Of a stretch of 64,000 bases of DNA, positions 12,018-61,905 are shown piece after piece. This DNA is from Phascolarctobacterium sp. Its GTDB lineage: Bacteria > Bacillota > Negativicutes > Acidaminococcales > Acidaminococcaceae. How positions within the stretch are numbered: position 1 is the first letter of the stretch; every line of letters begins with the position of its first letter. The position numbers and the translations under genes were made by a program. Under the pieces are notes generated by a model. It was not told where the DNA came from. It did no database searches and worked only from the letters and a program-made list of their open reading frames with translations. Location of the stretch: NCBI GenBank assembly GCA_030531205.1, contig JAUNOC010000002.1:62001-126000 (forward strand). The letters are read 5' to 3'.

Positions 12018-12277
12018 GGACATAATGCGTAATGCGTAATTCGCAATGCGTAATTATGGTAAGATGTTCCTGTGATTATAATTTAGGCTTTAGGTTATAG
12101 GAAAGTCAGCATAGTGTGAACTCTTGCCTCCCAGTTAGGGGAGGTGGCTTGCCGATAGTTTTTAGGTGGGCAAGACGGAGGGGTTATAAGTAAAAAGACC
12201 AAATAATCAAAGAGCAAAGACCAAATGTGGTAAAAAGTTCCTGTGATTAGAAATAGTCACAGGATTTTTTCATTTAG
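12018..12277 (+). repeat. Mosaic repeat cluster 1 (modules B, A, D, A)
   Basis: This gene-free stretch holds, in order: a microrepeat of AATGCGT/AATTCGC units (12024-12055); an A core with GTTCCTGTGATTATA (12053-12080); a G-rich segment with GGGCAAGACGGA; a D module containing CAAATAATCAAA (about 12199-12228) that recurs at 61806-61835; and a second A core (12225-12250). The last A core flows into a hairpin, CCTGTGA...TCACAGG followed by ATTTTTT, that could act as a terminator. No gene is seen. Confidence 0.75.
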
Positions 12278-12317
12278 AACAGCAAAATCTCAATTTCAAA
12301 ATGGCGACATTTTATAT
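12278..12317 (+). repeat. Left part of hairpin repeat, interrupted by IS30
   Basis: ACAGCAAAATCTC followed by the arm AAAATGGCGACATTTT (12298-12313) matches 35798-35837. The partner arm AAAATGTCGCCATTTT lies at 13414-13429, on the other side of the insertion sequence. Confidence 0.85.
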
Positions 12318-13410
12318 CTTGAATTGTCAAACTAAGTGCAACGATTTGGAATAAAACACTTCAAATGGTGTTCTGAAATTAAGACATTTTCTCGGACGTA
12401 AATTTAATTCATCAAATATTTTCTGAACATAGTCGTCCGTTATATCCGTCAAGTCCTTACCTTTAGGGAAAAATTCCCCTAACAAGCCATTTATATTTTC
12501 AACGGTTCCCTTTTGCCAAGGATGGTGCGGTAGCGGAAAATAGAAAGGTACATTGCCGAGGGCTTTTGAAACTTCCCTGTGTTTGGCGAACTCATGCCCC
12601 CTGTCTGGGGTTATGGACCTTAAGGGCATACCGGAAAGTTTGAGTATCATTACTTGGTTCACATATCCTGCCTCTTTGTTTTGTGCCTTGCCGCCACACA
12701 GGAAACGGCTTTTCCTGTCCACCATTGTTACAAGACATGCTTTTTTAAGTTTCCCCAACATTGTGTCACTTTCCCAATGCCCTATACAAGAACGTTGTTC
12801 TGCTGACAACGGCCGGTCACAGATATTATTGCTTATGATTATTTTCCCCCTGCGTTCCTCATAATTTTTTGAATGCCGTTTTTTCCCGTGATGCCTGAGT
12901 TTGTGAAGCACAGCATGAAATGCTTTCTCTGATGTACCGACATTGAGCAGTCCTTTATATATGGCACGGTATATTGTGTTATAACTTATCAAATTTTTGT
13001 TGTTTTCCTCCGCAAGTCTTCCCGATATTTGTTCGGGGGACCAGTTATGGTTAATGATTTTATCCCTGACAATGTTGAGCAGTGACAAATTTGCGAGTTT
13101 GTTTTTGGGTTTGCATGCTTTACGACGTTGTTCATACATATTTTGTGCCTTTACTGGGATATATTGTTCCTTTGAATTACGTCGGATTTCCCTGTAAATT
13201 GTCGACCTGTTTCTTGACAGAAATATTGCTATTTGGGAAACGGGATAATGTTTTGCCAAAAAAAACATTAGCTTTTCCCTTTCAATTAGTGTAAGATGTT
13301 TATAATGGCACATGGCTACCTCCTGTTTTATGTTGTCTTTTGCAAACACCATTTTAACAGAAGTTTCTGTGTGTCATTTTATTTTGTTGCACTTAGATTG
13401 TACATTCGCC
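12318..13410 (-). mobile_element. IS30-family insertion sequence, about 1093 bp
   Basis: One transposase fills the element. The ends are imperfect inverted repeats: GAATTGTCAAACTAAGTGC... from 12321 inward, and the complement of the other end reads GAATGTACAATCTAAGTGC from 13407 inward (about 18 of 22 match). A 2-bp duplication AT (12316-12317 and 13411-13412), or 3-bp ATC if the boundary is moved one base, flanks it. The uninterrupted sibling at 35818-35854 defines the junctions. The transposase is intact, so the copy may be active. Confidence 0.88.
12327..13313 (-). CDS. IS30-family transposase
   Basis: The 328-residue protein has an N-terminal helix-turn-helix (HLTLIEREKLMFFLAKHYPVS, then SRNRSTIYREIRRN) and a DDE catalytic core with GHWESDTMLGK, TPDRGHEFAKH and KGTVENINGLL carrying the D, D and E residues. 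An upstream in-frame ATG at 13352 exists, but AGGAGG lies 7 bases before the ATG at 13311-13313, which decides this start. There is no frameshift or internal stop. The protein ends nine bases from the element boundary. Confidence 0.93.
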   Translation of the reverse strand: MCHYKHLTLIEREKLMFFLAKHYPVSQIAIFLSRNRSTIYREIRRNSKEQYIPVKAQNMYEQRRKACKPKNKLANLSLLNIVRDKIINHNWSPEQISGRLAEENNKNLISYNTIYRAIYKGLLNVGTSEKAFHAVLHKLRHHGKKRHSKNYEERRGKIIISNNICDRPLSAEQRSCIGHWESDTMLGKLKKACLVTMVDRKSRFLCGGKAQNKEAGYVNQVMILKLSGMPLRSITPDRGHEFAKHREVSKALGNVPFYFPLPHHPWQKGTVENINGLLGEFFPKGKDLTDITDDYVQKIFDELNLRPRKCLNFRTPFEVFYSKSLHLV

Positions 13411-13790
13411 ATCAAAATGTCGCCATTTTGAAATTAACTTTTCACGATTTTAATTGCATTTTAGTGACGAGTAAAAATAGAAATGTGTCTGAAATGATAT
13501 AAGACCGCATCAGTATGATATCATTTTGACACTGTAACAAAAAGCAAAATGAAAAACTATTTTGATTAGAATTGGGAAGTTAGATGAAAGCGAAAGTAAC
13601 TCTCTCCTTGGGGAGAGAGTACCCGTAGGGGGAGTGTGGAGAAACATTTGATTAGGTTGTTACTTTCTGTTGAAATTGTGAAAAGTGCGGAATTTTCCCC
13701 ACACCCTTTTATTCCCTCTCCCCAGGGAGAGGGGCAGTCAGCATCAAGCGGACTTTTTTTTAATCACAGGAACATTTTACCATAATTATT
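13411..13790 (+). repeat. Right part of compound repeat with palindromes
   Basis: From 13411 to about 13735 this matches 35836-36158 nearly base for base. It contains the right hairpin arm (13414-13429), an imperfect hairpin around GAAATGATAT...ATATCATTTTGAC (about 13484-13533), two CCTCTCC-type palindromes (about 13600-13620 and 13712-13733), and ends with an inverted A core (13761-13787, complement reads GTTCCTGTGATTA). No gene is seen in 13411-13870. Confidence 0.82.
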
Positions 13791-13953: not shown

Positions 13954-15720
13954 ATGAAAATCAATTTGAAGAAAAAGGTTGTGCTGGCGGTGCTGGCAGG
14001 CGGTATGTTATGCGCCAATGGGGCATTTGCGACGACATGGTATGGTTCAAGTAGTGATGCTACTATGTGGACAAGTAATTTTAATGAAGGGCGTACAACA
14101 GGGGCAAATCTTATTTTGGACGGAACTGCCAGCCAGGGTTTAACATCAATAAGTAACGGTGATCAATTTTATGCCGGTTTTGGTTATTCAGCAGTTTCTG
14201 GTAATAATTTAAGTATCACCGCTGGCAATTATACGAGCAACTCGTTTTATGCCGGTAAAAACAACAGCAATGAAGGGGGTGCAAGTAATAATCATATTAT
14301 GGTTACTGGAGGATCCATATATGGCGGTGATGGTGGTAGTCATGATGGTTATGTTGCGGAGAATACAATAGAAATTAATGGGGGAGAATTTACAAATGTT
14401 AAAATTTGTGGCGGAAATTCCGGAGGTATGATGTCTGGTGGATGTGTTAATAATGAAGTGACTATTGTGGCTGGAACTTTTCACGACGGAAATCAGTTTT
14501 ATGGTTATGATAGTTCATATGGTGGTAGTCCGTCAGGTAATACATTAAATTTAAAAATCAAGATGGGAGGGAAGGCGCAAAGCGTTAACCATTTTGAAAA
14601 AATAAATTTCACTTTGCCAAGTGATATTGCAGATGGTGACATTATGTTGCATACAACTGATGTGTGGTATAGTGATACTTTGATAGGCGTTGAAGCTGCT
14701 GATGGGGTTACTTTAAAAAAAGATGATGAAATTTATTTGATCAAAGCAGATAGCGGAAGCGGCAGTATAAGCAATAATGGAGCAACGGTACTTGGGGGTG
14801 CGGGGCAAATTAGTTTAGATGGTGTTAATTTGATTTTAACTATGTTACAGAATTACGGAGGCGGTGGCGGTAGTGAAGACCAACAGAAAGCCCCCGTTGA
14901 AGGTGTGGCTGCGGCTGCGGCTATGGTGAATGCCAGTGCGGATTTGGCAAGCGGTGAAGGCATGAGCAGTTTGGTTGCCAATACAGCTGGCGGCGGGACT
15001 GACACCTTCGGTGCCATGAGTGCGGGCAGCAGCAAATACAAGACCGGCAGCCATGTGGATGTGGACGGCTGGGGCGTTATTGTGGGTGCTGGCAATACGA
15101 AAAAATGGGATAACGGCAATGCCACAACCTACGGACTGTTCTTTGAATACGGCAAAGGGGACTTTGACACCTACAACGGCAATGTACACGGTGACGGCAA
15201 TTCCGAGAACAAGGGTGTGGGTATTATGATACGCCATCAATTAGCGAATAATACTTACTTCGAAGGTAATGTTCGCTATGGCAAGCAGGAAACGGAATGG
15301 AGCGAAAGTGATTTAGGCGGTTATGAAACCGACAGCAAATATCACGGAGCAATGGTAGGTTTTGGCAAGATTTACAAAAAAGGTAATAACAAACTGGACA
15401 CATATTTGAGATATGCTTACGGTCATGTGGGGGCATGCGATGCAACACTTAAAGACGGTACAGAATATCACTTTGAGAGCGTGAAGAGCCACAGGGTGCG
15501 TACGGGTGTAAGATATACGTTCGGTCAGCGTGAAACGGGCTTCAAACCCTATATTGGGGCGGCGTGGGAACATGAGTTTAACGGTGAAACAAAGGCAAGC
15601 ATATCGGGCATAGGAGAAGCACCAGCACCGACGTTAAAAGGTAATACAGGAATATTTGAACTTGGTTTTGACTGGGATGATGGCTCCAAATGGGTTTTAG
15701 AAATTATAATTAAAAATTAA
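13954..15720 (+). CDS. Autotransporter with C-terminal barrel, end replaced by repeat
   Basis: The 588-residue protein has a signal peptide (MKINLKKKVVLAVLAGGMLC, cleavage near ANGAFA), a glycine/asparagine-rich passenger with recurring NxIxIxGGxF-like units (about 110-180), a GGGGGSEDQQ linker near 310 and a type V autotransporter barrel from about 325. The barrel should end in a strand finishing with phenylalanine. Instead, after GFDWDDGSKW the frame enters AT-rich repeat sequence and ends VLEIIIKN. The last strand therefore looks lost, so outer-membrane insertion may be impaired. AGGAGG precedes the ATG. Confidence 0.8.
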   Translation: MKINLKKKVVLAVLAGGMLCANGAFATTWYGSSSDATMWTSNFNEGRTTGANLILDGTASQGLTSISNGDQFYAGFGYSAVSGNNLSITAGNYTSNSFYAGKNNSNEGGASNNHIMVTGGSIYGGDGGSHDGYVAENTIEINGGEFTNVKICGGNSGGMMSGGCVNNEVTIVAGTFHDGNQFYGYDSSYGGSPSGNTLNLKIKMGGKAQSVNHFEKINFTLPSDIADGDIMLHTTDVWYSDTLIGVEAADGVTLKKDDEIYLIKADSGSGSISNNGATVLGGAGQISLDGVNLILTMLQNYGGGGGSEDQQKAPVEGVAAAAAMVNASADLASGEGMSSLVANTAGGGTDTFGAMSAGSSKYKTGSHVDVDGWGVIVGAGNTKKWDNGNATTYGLFFEYGKGDFDTYNGNVHGDGNSENKGVGIMIRHQLANNTYFEGNVRYGKQETEWSESDLGGYETDSKYHGAMVGFGKIYKKGNNKLDTYLRYAYGHVGACDATLKDGTEYHFESVKSHRVRTGVRYTFGQRETGFKPYIGAAWEHEFNGETKASISGIGEAPAPTLKGNTGIFELGFDWDDGSKWVLEIIIKN

Positions 15721-15838
15721 AAACGAAAAATTAAAAATTGTGGTAAAGAGTTCTGGTGATTAGATTTTGGGAAGTTCGATGTAAGCGAGGGTCAGTCAGC
15801 ATCAAGCAAACTTCCCCTTACATCTGAAACCTCAAACC
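15701..15838 (+). repeat. Mosaic repeat between convergent genes
   Basis: An AT-rich TTAAAAATT microrepeat leads into an A core variant (TGGTAAAGAGTTCTGGTG, 15742-15759) and a GAAGTTCGATG segment. It ends with CATCTGAAACCTCAAAC (15821-15837), which matches 63169-63185 with one mismatch. It overlaps the 3' ends of both the autotransporter and rqcH. Confidence 0.75.
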
Positions 15839-25469: not shown

Positions 25470-25715
25470 TTGGCAAGTTAAAAATTATAAGTTAAAAGCT
25501 AAAAATTATGGTGAGATGTTCCTGTGATTATAGCGGGAAAGTTAGCATAGTGGTAAAGTAACCCTCTCCCCGGGGAGAGGGGCAGGGGTGTGGGGAAAAG
25601 TACGATAGCAATTAGAAATGTGAAATGATGGTAGGATGTTCAGGTGATTATGGCAGAGAAGATGGAATAAAGCGAAAGTTTCTGATTTTAATCGAAGGAA
25701 CATTTCACCATAATT
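25470..25715 (+). repeat. Mosaic repeat cluster 2
   Basis: This gene-free stretch has an AT-rich microrepeat (AAGTTAAAAATTATAAG...), an A core (25505-25532), a CCCTCTCCCCGGGGAGAGGG palindrome (about 25561-25580), a second A core variant (25625-25652) and an inverted A core (25689-25715), followed by 44 bp before the transporter genes. No gene is seen in 25465-25759. Confidence 0.78.
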
Positions 25716-35264: not shown

Positions 35265-35330
35265 TGCGTAATGCGTAATTCGCAATGCGTAATTATGTAG
35301 GATGTTCCTGTGATTAAATTTTAGGTTTCA
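35262..35330 (+). repeat. Mosaic repeat cluster 3, first B-A unit
   Basis: TTTAATGCGTAATGCG units start at the radical SAM stop codon and lead to an A core (35291-35317). A G-rich segment (35370-35450) without a gene follows. Confidence 0.78.
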
Positions 35331-35485
35331 GGAAAGAAGTTAGCATAATGCGAACTCTTGCGTCCCCTTGCGAGGGGAAGAGGGCCGATAAGGGAGCATG
35401 GAGCGGCGAAGGGGTAGTTTGCGGCAGCAAGTTAGGTTGATACTTTTAAGTTACAAGTTATAATCTATTTGAAAAAATATTTTGT

Positions 35486-35531
35486 CTGTAACCTACTTTT
35501 TACAGTTTTTGGGACTCCTTTTATATATAGG
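35486..35531 (+). repeat. 46-bp dispersed repeat module C, copy 2
   Basis: Matches 11971-12016 with about three mismatches; here the inner CTGTA...TACAG could pair as a short hairpin. Confidence 0.75.
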
Positions 35532-35539
35532 GGTAGGTA

Positions 35540-35590
35540 AAATTAGTAATTAGTAATGAGTAATTGTGGTAAGATGTTTCTGTGATTATA
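35540..35590 (+). repeat. Second B-A unit of cluster 3
   Basis: AATTAGTAATTAGTAATGAG units followed by an A core variant with GATGTTTCTGTGATTATA. Confidence 0.75.
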
Positions 35591-35749: not shown

Positions 35750-35797
35750 TGTTTTTATTTTTGTTTCGCTTTTAACTCATCGTTGAAAAGTATTCAA

Positions 35798-36158
35798 AAC
35801 AGCAAAATCTCATTTCTAAAATGGCGACATTTTATATCAAAATGTCGCCATTTTGAAATTAACTTTTAACGCTTTTAATTGCGTTTTAGTGACGAGTAAA
35901 AATAGAAATGTGTCTGAAGTGATATAAGACCGCATCAGTATGATATCATTTTGACGCTGTAACAAAAAGCAAAATGAAAAATTATTTTGATTAGAATTGG
36001 GAAGTTGGCATAAAGCGAAAGTAACTCTCTCCTTGGGGAGAGAGTACCCGTAGGGGGAGTGTGGGGAAACATTGGATAAGGTTGTTACTTCCTGTTGAAA
36101 TTATGAAAAGTGCGGAGTTTTACCCACACCCTTTTATTCCCTCTCCCCAGGGAGAGGG
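35798..36158. repeat. Uninterrupted copy of the compound hairpin repeat
   Basis: Starts ACAGCAAAATCTC, then a perfect hairpin AAAATGGCGACATTTT / ATATC / AAAATGTCGCCATTTT (35818-35854), an imperfect hairpin (about 35909-35958), and two CCTCTCC-type palindromes. It is the sibling of 12278-12317 plus 13411-13735 and is the empty site of the IS30 insertion. The 36159-36234 tail carries a module (GCTGACACCTGATACTT) also seen near 63164. No gene is seen in 35265-36303. Confidence 0.85.
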
Positions 36159-59516: not shown

Positions 59517-61637
59517 ATGGCACAAGAATTAACTAATGAACAAAAGCAACAGATTATGGAAAAATTTGGTCAGGATTTGACGCAAAGAGCAAAGGACGGC
59601 AAACTGGACCCGGTGATTGGCAGGGATGAAGAAATCCGCCGGGTGGTGGAAATTTTAAGCCGTAGGAAAAAGAATAACCCGGTGCTGATTGGGGAGCCGG
59701 GGGTAGGTAAAACTGCCATTGTGGAAGGATTGGCAAGAAGAATTATTGCTGGGGATGTGCCGGAAGGATTGCAGAATAAAACCCTTTATGCCCTTGATTT
59801 GGCGGCATTGGTGGCGGGTGCAAAGTTCCGGGGTGAATTTGAGGAACGGCTGAAACTGGTTTTGAAAGTGGTAACGGAAAGTGCAGGGCAAATCATTATG
59901 TTTATTGATGAACTGCATACTGTTGTCAGTGCGGGTGCCGCAGAAGGAGCAATGGATGCGGGGAACATTTTGAAACCCATGCTGGCAAGGGGTGAACTCC
60001 GTTGCATCGGTGCCACAACTTTGAATGAATATAGAAAATATATTGAAAAGGACAGCGCTTTGGAACGGCGTTTTCAACCCGTGCTTGTCAATCCCCCCAG
60101 CGTGGAGGACACCATCAGCGTGCTTCGTGGTCTGCGTGAGCGCTATGAAGTGCATCATGGGGTCAGAATTAAGGACGCGGCTTTGGTATGTGCGGCAGTG
60201 CTTTCCGACAGATATATTAATGATCGTTTTTTGCCGGATAAAGCCATTGACCTGGTGGATGAGGCAGCGGCACGTTTACGTACAGAAATTGACTCTTTGC
60301 CCGCAGAACTTGACGAAGGCAAACGGAGAATTTTGCAACTGGAAATTGAGGAACAGGCACTGCAAAAAGAAGAAGATGCGGCCTCCCGTGACCGGCTTGT
60401 GAAATTGCAGGACGAGCTGAAAAAAATGCGCAGTGATACGGAAGAACTGGTAAAACGTTGGGAAAGCGAAAAGCAGGGTATTACCCGTGTCCGGGAAGTG
60501 AAACGCCAGATTGATGCGGTAAAACAGGAAATGGAAACCGCAGAGCGGGAATATAATTTGAATAAACTTGCAGAATTACAATATGGCAAACTTCCCGCCT
60601 TACAAAAAGAATTGGCAGAGTTGAGCGGAGGCAGCGGCGGCAACAAACTGCTCCGTGAAGAAGTGGATGAAGAGGATATAGCAAGAGTTGTGGCTACCTG
60701 GACGGGTATTCCCGTAAGCCGTTTAGGGCAGGGGGAAAGGGAAAAACTTTCTCATTTGGAAGAAATTTTGCACGAACGGGTTATTGGTCAGGACGAAGCC
60801 ATTAATGCGGTTAGCAAGGCGGTTATCCGTGCCAGGGCAGGGATTAAAGACCCAAACCGTCCAATTGGTTCTTTTATATTCTTGGGGCCTACGGGTGTGG
60901 GAAAAACGGAACTTGCCAAAACCTTGGCAGAGGTGCTTTTTGACGATGAACGTAATATGGTACGCATTGACATGAGTGAGTATATGGAAAAGTTCAGCGT
61001 TACCAGATTGATTGGCGCACCTCCGGGCTATGTCGGTTATGAGGAAGGGGGCCAGCTGACGGAAGCAGTCCGCCGCCATCCTTACAGCGTAATTTTGTTG
61101 GATGAAATTGAAAAGGCCCATGCTGATGTATTTAATGTACTTTTGCAGGTGTTGGATGACGGACGACTTACGGACGGGCAGGGCCGTATTGTGGATTTCA
61201 AGAACACAATTATTATTATGACCAGTAACCTTGGCAGTCAGGAGATTATGGCACAGGGACTGATGGGCAGGGAAAAAATTCAGCAGATGCTGATGCAGTT
61301 CTTCCGTCCGGAATTTCTGAACCGGGTGGACGATATCATTACCTTTAACGCTTTGGGTGAAAAAGAGATTAAGAATATTGTACAGCTCATTTTGAAGGAA
61401 TTGGGAGTACGGCTGGCAAAGCAGACCCAAATCAAACTTGGAGTAACGGATGAGGCAGTGGCATATTTGGCAAAGACCGGCTTTGACCCGGCATTTGGGG
61501 CAAGACCATTGAAACGGCTTATTGTTCACACAGTGGAAAATATTTTAGGCAAAAAAATCATCTCCGCCCAGATTAAGGCAGGGGATGAAGTTCAGGTTGT
61601 ACTTGACCATGATAATGTGGATGTGGTGGTGATTTAA
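59517..61637 (+). CDS. clpB: Chaperone ClpB without N-terminal domain
   Basis: The 706-residue disaggregase has two AAA+ modules ([34 protein letters not shown]) and the ClpB middle coiled coil (about 245-370). The about 145-residue Clp_N domain is missing: the protein starts just before [29 protein letters not shown] at 59505-59513 is placed for the ATG at 59517, and promoter and leader lie immediately upstream, so the short form is the encoded form, not a truncation. The TAA stop coincides with the start of a repeat. Confidence 0.93.
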
Positions 61638-61905
61638 TGCGTAATTCGCAATGCGGAATTATGGTAAAATGTTCCTGTGATTATATTTTAGGTTTTAGGT
61701 GTGCGGTGTTATGCGATTTTTTTCCGCCCCAGGCGTGGGGCGGGGGACCGTCTAAAGGAACATAGAAGGACGGTGGTGGGGTCGCTCGGTACGATAGAAA
61801 TAAAGAACAAATAATCAAATAGCAAAGACCAAATATGGTAGGATGTTCTTGTGATTATGCTTAAGAATGAAGAATTAAGGCAAAAAGTTCCAGTGATTAT
61901 AATCG
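61635..61905 (+). repeat. Mosaic repeat cluster 4
   Basis: TTTAATGCGTAATTCGC units begin at the clpB stop. They lead to an A core (61658-61684), a CCGCCCC/GGGGCGG hairpin (61721-61742), an ACCGTC/GACGGT pair, a D module with CAAATAATCAAA (61806-61835), an A variant (61833-61859) and a third A variant (61876-61902). No gene is seen in 61638-61945. Confidence 0.78.

Follow-up and report, generated by a model that had tools for sequence, protein, structure and literature searches.

The window, i.e., the whole 64,000-nucleotide stretch of DNA analyzed here, contains an insertion sequence (IS) lodged in the loop of a hairpin. This raises the question of whether the element was directed to that position and, if so, whether the hairpin itself or a shorter feature of the target was recognized.

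Insertion Sequence and Family Assignment

The element is complete and occupies positions 12319–13410 on the minus strand (1092 bp), as delimited by its sequence, the NCBIfam profile NF033563 and its ends. It carries an intact transposase of 341 aa (12327–13352, minus strand) that matches NF033563 (transpos_IS30) with 268.8 bits against a cut-off of 80, together with an HTH_38 match and a weak rve match. The end at 13410, on the transposase start side, reads GGCGAATGTACAATCTAAGTGCAAC on the minus strand and pairs with TTGAATTGTCAAACTAAGTGCAAC as terminal inverted repeats of the IS30 type (about 25 bp). In addition, ATC is doubled at the junctions, within the 2–3 bp usual for this family, and the targets are symmetric according to the class-wide junction profile and flank complementarity described below. 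The transposase is 50.6–50.9% identical (about 51%) over 95% of the protein to those of ISApl1, the mobilizer of the mcr-1 colistin-resistance gene; both elements have the ends GAATNTACAATNNAAGTGCAAC and GTTGCACTTNNTTTGACAATTC in common and both make short duplications. On sequence grounds, the element is a member of the ISApl1 group of the IS30 family, an already known kind of IS.

A pattern derived from the ends matched 53 of the 380 genomes of the class. In a tree built from the elements of the class and cyanobacterial IS30 relatives, without ISApl1 itself, the former split from the latter with full support. The cyanobacterial relatives, at about 38% identity, have other ends and no clear T-tract. 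Neither protein search nor the end pattern found a relative in viral contigs.

Insertion Site and the Dispersed Hairpin Repeat

The IS30 element inside a hairpin loop, as described in the initial annotation, was confirmed by direct reading of the sequence. On the plus strand, the left arm AAAATGGCGACATTTT (12298–12313), whose TTTT is one half-site of a symmetric target, is followed by the loop ATATC (12314–12318) and then by the IS, while the right arm AAAATGTCGCCATTTT (13414–13429) supplies AAAA as the other half-site. Comparison with an uninterrupted repeat identified ATC as the target duplication (12316–12318 and 13411–13413), which settles the proposed 2- or 3-bp duplication at 3 bp. The element is thus located in a hairpin loop of 5 nt flanked by 16-bp arms, and the site reads CATTTT-GATAT-AAAATG on the other strand. 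Its flanks were the most symmetric among 41 junctions with both flanks (arm score of 21, the 99th percentile of the null being 8). The insertion lies one base off the exact center of the loop.

An uninterrupted hairpin at 35818–35854 (plus strand), identified by sequence, BLAST and folding, belongs to the same repeat family and has a folding energy of −19.6 kcal/mol, whereas shuffled versions average −3.3 (z of −8.8), a high stability for its composition. It had been regarded as the empty site, 23 kb away. The hairpin is there, but it is a paralogous copy of the repeat and not the pre-insertion allele, since the two places are 93% alike over the following 300 bp (13402–13701, plus strand, and 35827–36126 in pairwise comparison). 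A search of the thrS region in two relatives of the genus found no allelic empty site, because synteny beyond thrS was lost or not covered.

A 261-bp repeat query (35780–36040) gave 63 BLAST matches in the 1.33-Mb genome, corresponding to fewer than 63 copies since several places matched on both strands. Twenty hairpins were compared (18 from the same genome and two from the sister species; among the twenty, the one from L006 is a neighboring hairpin of another kind), and 11 different left arms were found, most arms being nearly palindromic themselves. Several pairs showed changes on both sides, which makes the hairpin a dispersed repeat in which pairing has been kept. No Rfam match was found at the hairpins in the window.

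Some further features of the repeats were observed. The repeat at 35764–35908 and at the G000 loci L004–L028 consists of two near-palindromic, covarying 16-bp arms with cores such as GGCGAC, CTCGCG, GACGTC and CACGTG around a 5-nt loop, and the hairpin sits within a longer imperfect inverted repeat. RAYT-driven mobility was considered for the hairpin repeat and rejected, as no Y1 transposase (PF01797) was found in G000 and one in G001. A second repeat family, GGTAAGATGTTCCTGTGATTA, fills intergenic regions, often as inverted pairs and preceded by strings of TAATGCG/TAATTAG units; in the window it is found at 12023–12249, 15707–15762, 25475–25530, 35297–35588, 61628–61857 and other places.

Target Preference across the Group

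Target choice was studied on 130 R-end junctions of ISApl1-group elements from one bacterial class, 41 of them with both flanks; at many junctions, roughly 50 of them in g52 genomes, only one flank is seen because they are contig ends. Junctions were picked by an R-end pattern, which favors elements with similar ends and makes no selection on flanks, and the class- and genus-level groups rest on the kinship labels of the genomes. One own-genus junction of the set, L041, falls within a coding region at the start of a contig.

T was found at positions −8 to −6 in 78–83% of the 130 R-end junctions (background 28%) and A at +6 to +8 in 66–76% of the 41 L flanks (background 26%), so that the insertion falls between a T-tract and an A-tract half-site. 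The T frequency was 0.95 in the genus-level group g52, 0.81 in the own genus and 0.80 in G344, and the preference was weaker in the subgroups g63/64 and G329 (about 0.52). T-tract enrichment gave Fisher p values of 6e-4 for the own genus, 2e-10 for the others and 1e-38 for g52. Flank complementarity at positions 4–20 was 0.39, compared with 0.26 ± 0.017 for random centers and 0.35 for swapped partners, indicating that the symmetry is mostly the shared T/A consensus and, to a smaller part, a site-specific palindrome. The preference of some IS30-family elements for symmetric targets, invoked in the initial annotation, is therefore general in this ISApl1-group set.

The T/A rule was kept at sites without a long hairpin, as in G344 (TTTTTTCACC/CCACATAAAATTT), and over the whole junction set hairpins immediately upstream of the T-run were not enriched relative to other nearby T-runs. 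The determinant is thus the short T-tract/A-tract symmetry, and a long hairpin is a suitable target when its loop lies between TTTT and AAAA. With TTTT-GATAT-AAAA at the hairpin tip, the loop in the window is a good instance of this general rule. Of the six non-coding own-genus junctions, five lay in a hairpin or at most 20 nt from one, compared with 14% of T-run sites, a baseline from the non-coding DNA of the window, hence one genome only and with small n (binomial estimate of about 3e-4). Hairpins may therefore matter beyond the T-tract.

Copies in the Same Genome and in the Sister Species

The two other copies in the genome of the window, B1 and B2, are not at palindrome tips: B1 has no T/A symmetry and B2 has the T half only. 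Four of the five non-tip copies, namely B1 and three sister-species junctions, lie about 12–18 nt outside hairpin repeats, the distance being about 13–18 nt for the sister-species junctions. Since B1, B2 and these three junctions lie elsewhere, the strong claim that all insertions sit at palindrome tips is refuted. In this genome, one of the three copies is inside the palindromic repeat family, so that REP targeting in the sense of most copies entering one such family is not observed here.

Two 1094-bp IS copies, L002 (G000:C6:236261–237355) and L003 (C12:66202–67295), are 100% identical, with different flanks and the same break in the transposase frame, which indicates that a broken copy moved recently, perhaps in trans or through frameshifting. 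Immediately after the left end of the IS30 copy at L068 (G001:C110:192–216) comes sequence resembling the start of a different mobile element that carries its own gene.

Insertion into Palindromic Repeats in Group g52

As a rule, insertions in g52 fall into loops of palindromic repeats. Of 67 junctions, 46 end in half of the palindrome CTACTTTTTCTTTG-nnnn-CAAAGAAAAAGTAG, a half found at 2.3e-4 of control positions, and these 46 are independent since all outer flanks differ. Without an IS, the whole palindrome occurs 39 times as an exact copy in G198 and 22 times in G156. In the two-flank cases, the other half was present on the far side at L124, L188 and L189 and absent at L127 and L148, which may reflect deletions. 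Most copies of this group are therefore inside one palindromic repeat family (46/67), as expected for REP targeting. The palindrome-tip idea, contradicted by the non-tip copies of the own genome and sister species, holds for these repeat loops; it is right in kind and fits best in relatives of the window element.

Short derivatives of the IS (about 290–680 bp), with both ends kept and most of the transposase gone, were observed in G198 (L123–L129) and G156 (L148–L152) and are possibly non-autonomous elements.

Mechanism of Target Selection

Direct observation covers the IS itself, the target duplication and the T/A symmetry seen in the targets of the group. Very probably, a complete ISApl1-group IS30 element entered a double-stranded symmetric target, TTTT-N5-AAAA, by reading its half-sites. 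Paste-in steps are known from IS30 (PMC9333248). By analogy with IS30 and ISApl1, the transposase would bind a circular form of the IS in which the ends are joined, the helix-turn-helix part of the protein would read both T/A half-sites of the near-palindrome, and strand transfer would take place at the target center, 2–3 bp apart. The target here would be the loop and inner stem of the dispersed hairpin repeat, chosen for the TTTT and AAAA bounding the loop rather than for extrusion. In other hosts, the same rule would send the element to different host palindromes or T-tracts, for example repeats or the T-tracts found in some terminators.

Recognition of structure, in which the element would read an extruded hairpin or cruciform and insert at its tip, would agree with the symmetry of the window site, the highest of 41, with the 46 of 67 g52 junctions in repeat loops and with the clustering of own-genus junctions at hairpin repeats. 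It is nevertheless unlikely, as many sites, for instance in G344 and G138, lack a hairpin and show only the short T/A symmetry, B1 as well as the copies of the sister species are found outside the stem, and hairpins show no overall enrichment beyond T-runs.

Slightly less probable still is that the group aims at Rho-independent terminators (hairpin plus T-tract) as safe sites downstream of genes. In G200, G125, G128, G132, G098 and G204, junctions were found directly after terminator-like hairpins, the transposase being oriented away from them, but the frequency of such hairpins at T-run junctions (9/56 in g52 and 4/27 in the others) did not differ significantly from the 9% of control T-runs. 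As a general rule, terminator targeting was rejected for want of statistical support, and it may hold for one subgroup only (3/6 in G200 by the strict rule).

Coincidence, i.e., an IS that merely avoids genes in a small genome with repeat-rich intergenic DNA, would suit the abundance of the hairpin repeat and the position of the other copies away from tips, the initial annotation having named copies in non-palindromic sites as its sign, yet it is highly improbable given that T/A symmetry over 130 junctions is far from chance and that the g52 half-palindrome is so rare at control positions.

Relation to Known Systems and Significance

IS30 of E. coli belongs to the same family and also uses symmetric sites; the comparison covers the symmetry of these sites. 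Insertion next to its own ends is a second mode of IS30. Its natural hot spots follow a 24-bp symmetric consensus (PMC12445084), the central 2 bp being where it inserts (PMC9333248, PMC12445084). IS30 transposases, that of ISApl1 included, target imperfect palindromes with a GC-biased center and AT-rich distal parts (PMC9927407). ISApl1 (PMC9927407) and the window group share the imperfect palindrome, GC-leaning center and AT flanks, whereas in the window group the half-sites resolve to T-tract and A-tract and repeat loops are used in some hosts. The T/A rule is the known IS30/ISApl1 target rule. For the IS30-type element IS1630 of Mycoplasma fermentans, flanking duplications of 16–26 bp are reported (PMC3317919), in contrast to the 3 bp found here, where ATC alone was doubled and not an inverted repeat.

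Dispersed extragenic palindromes (REP/PU elements) are likewise used by IS1397 and ISKpn1 (IS3) and IS621 (IS110), which belong to other IS families. REP targeting has been listed for IS3, IS110, IS4, IS256 and IS5, a list from which IS30 is absent (PMC1525189). Tentatively, and with much less confidence than in the half-site reading, ISApl1-group elements of the class may have specialized repeatedly on the abundant palindromic repeats of their hosts as intergenic landing pads, with half-site reading co-evolving.

The target rule of ISApl1 has so far been described loosely (GC center, AT flanks), and the junctions of many independent relatives sharpen it to T-tract/A-tract half-sites at a fixed distance. 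They also show that palindromes scattered through host genomes serve ISApl1 relatives as natural hot spots and, if this is confirmed, the IS30 family would join the IS families that use REP-like repeats as targets.
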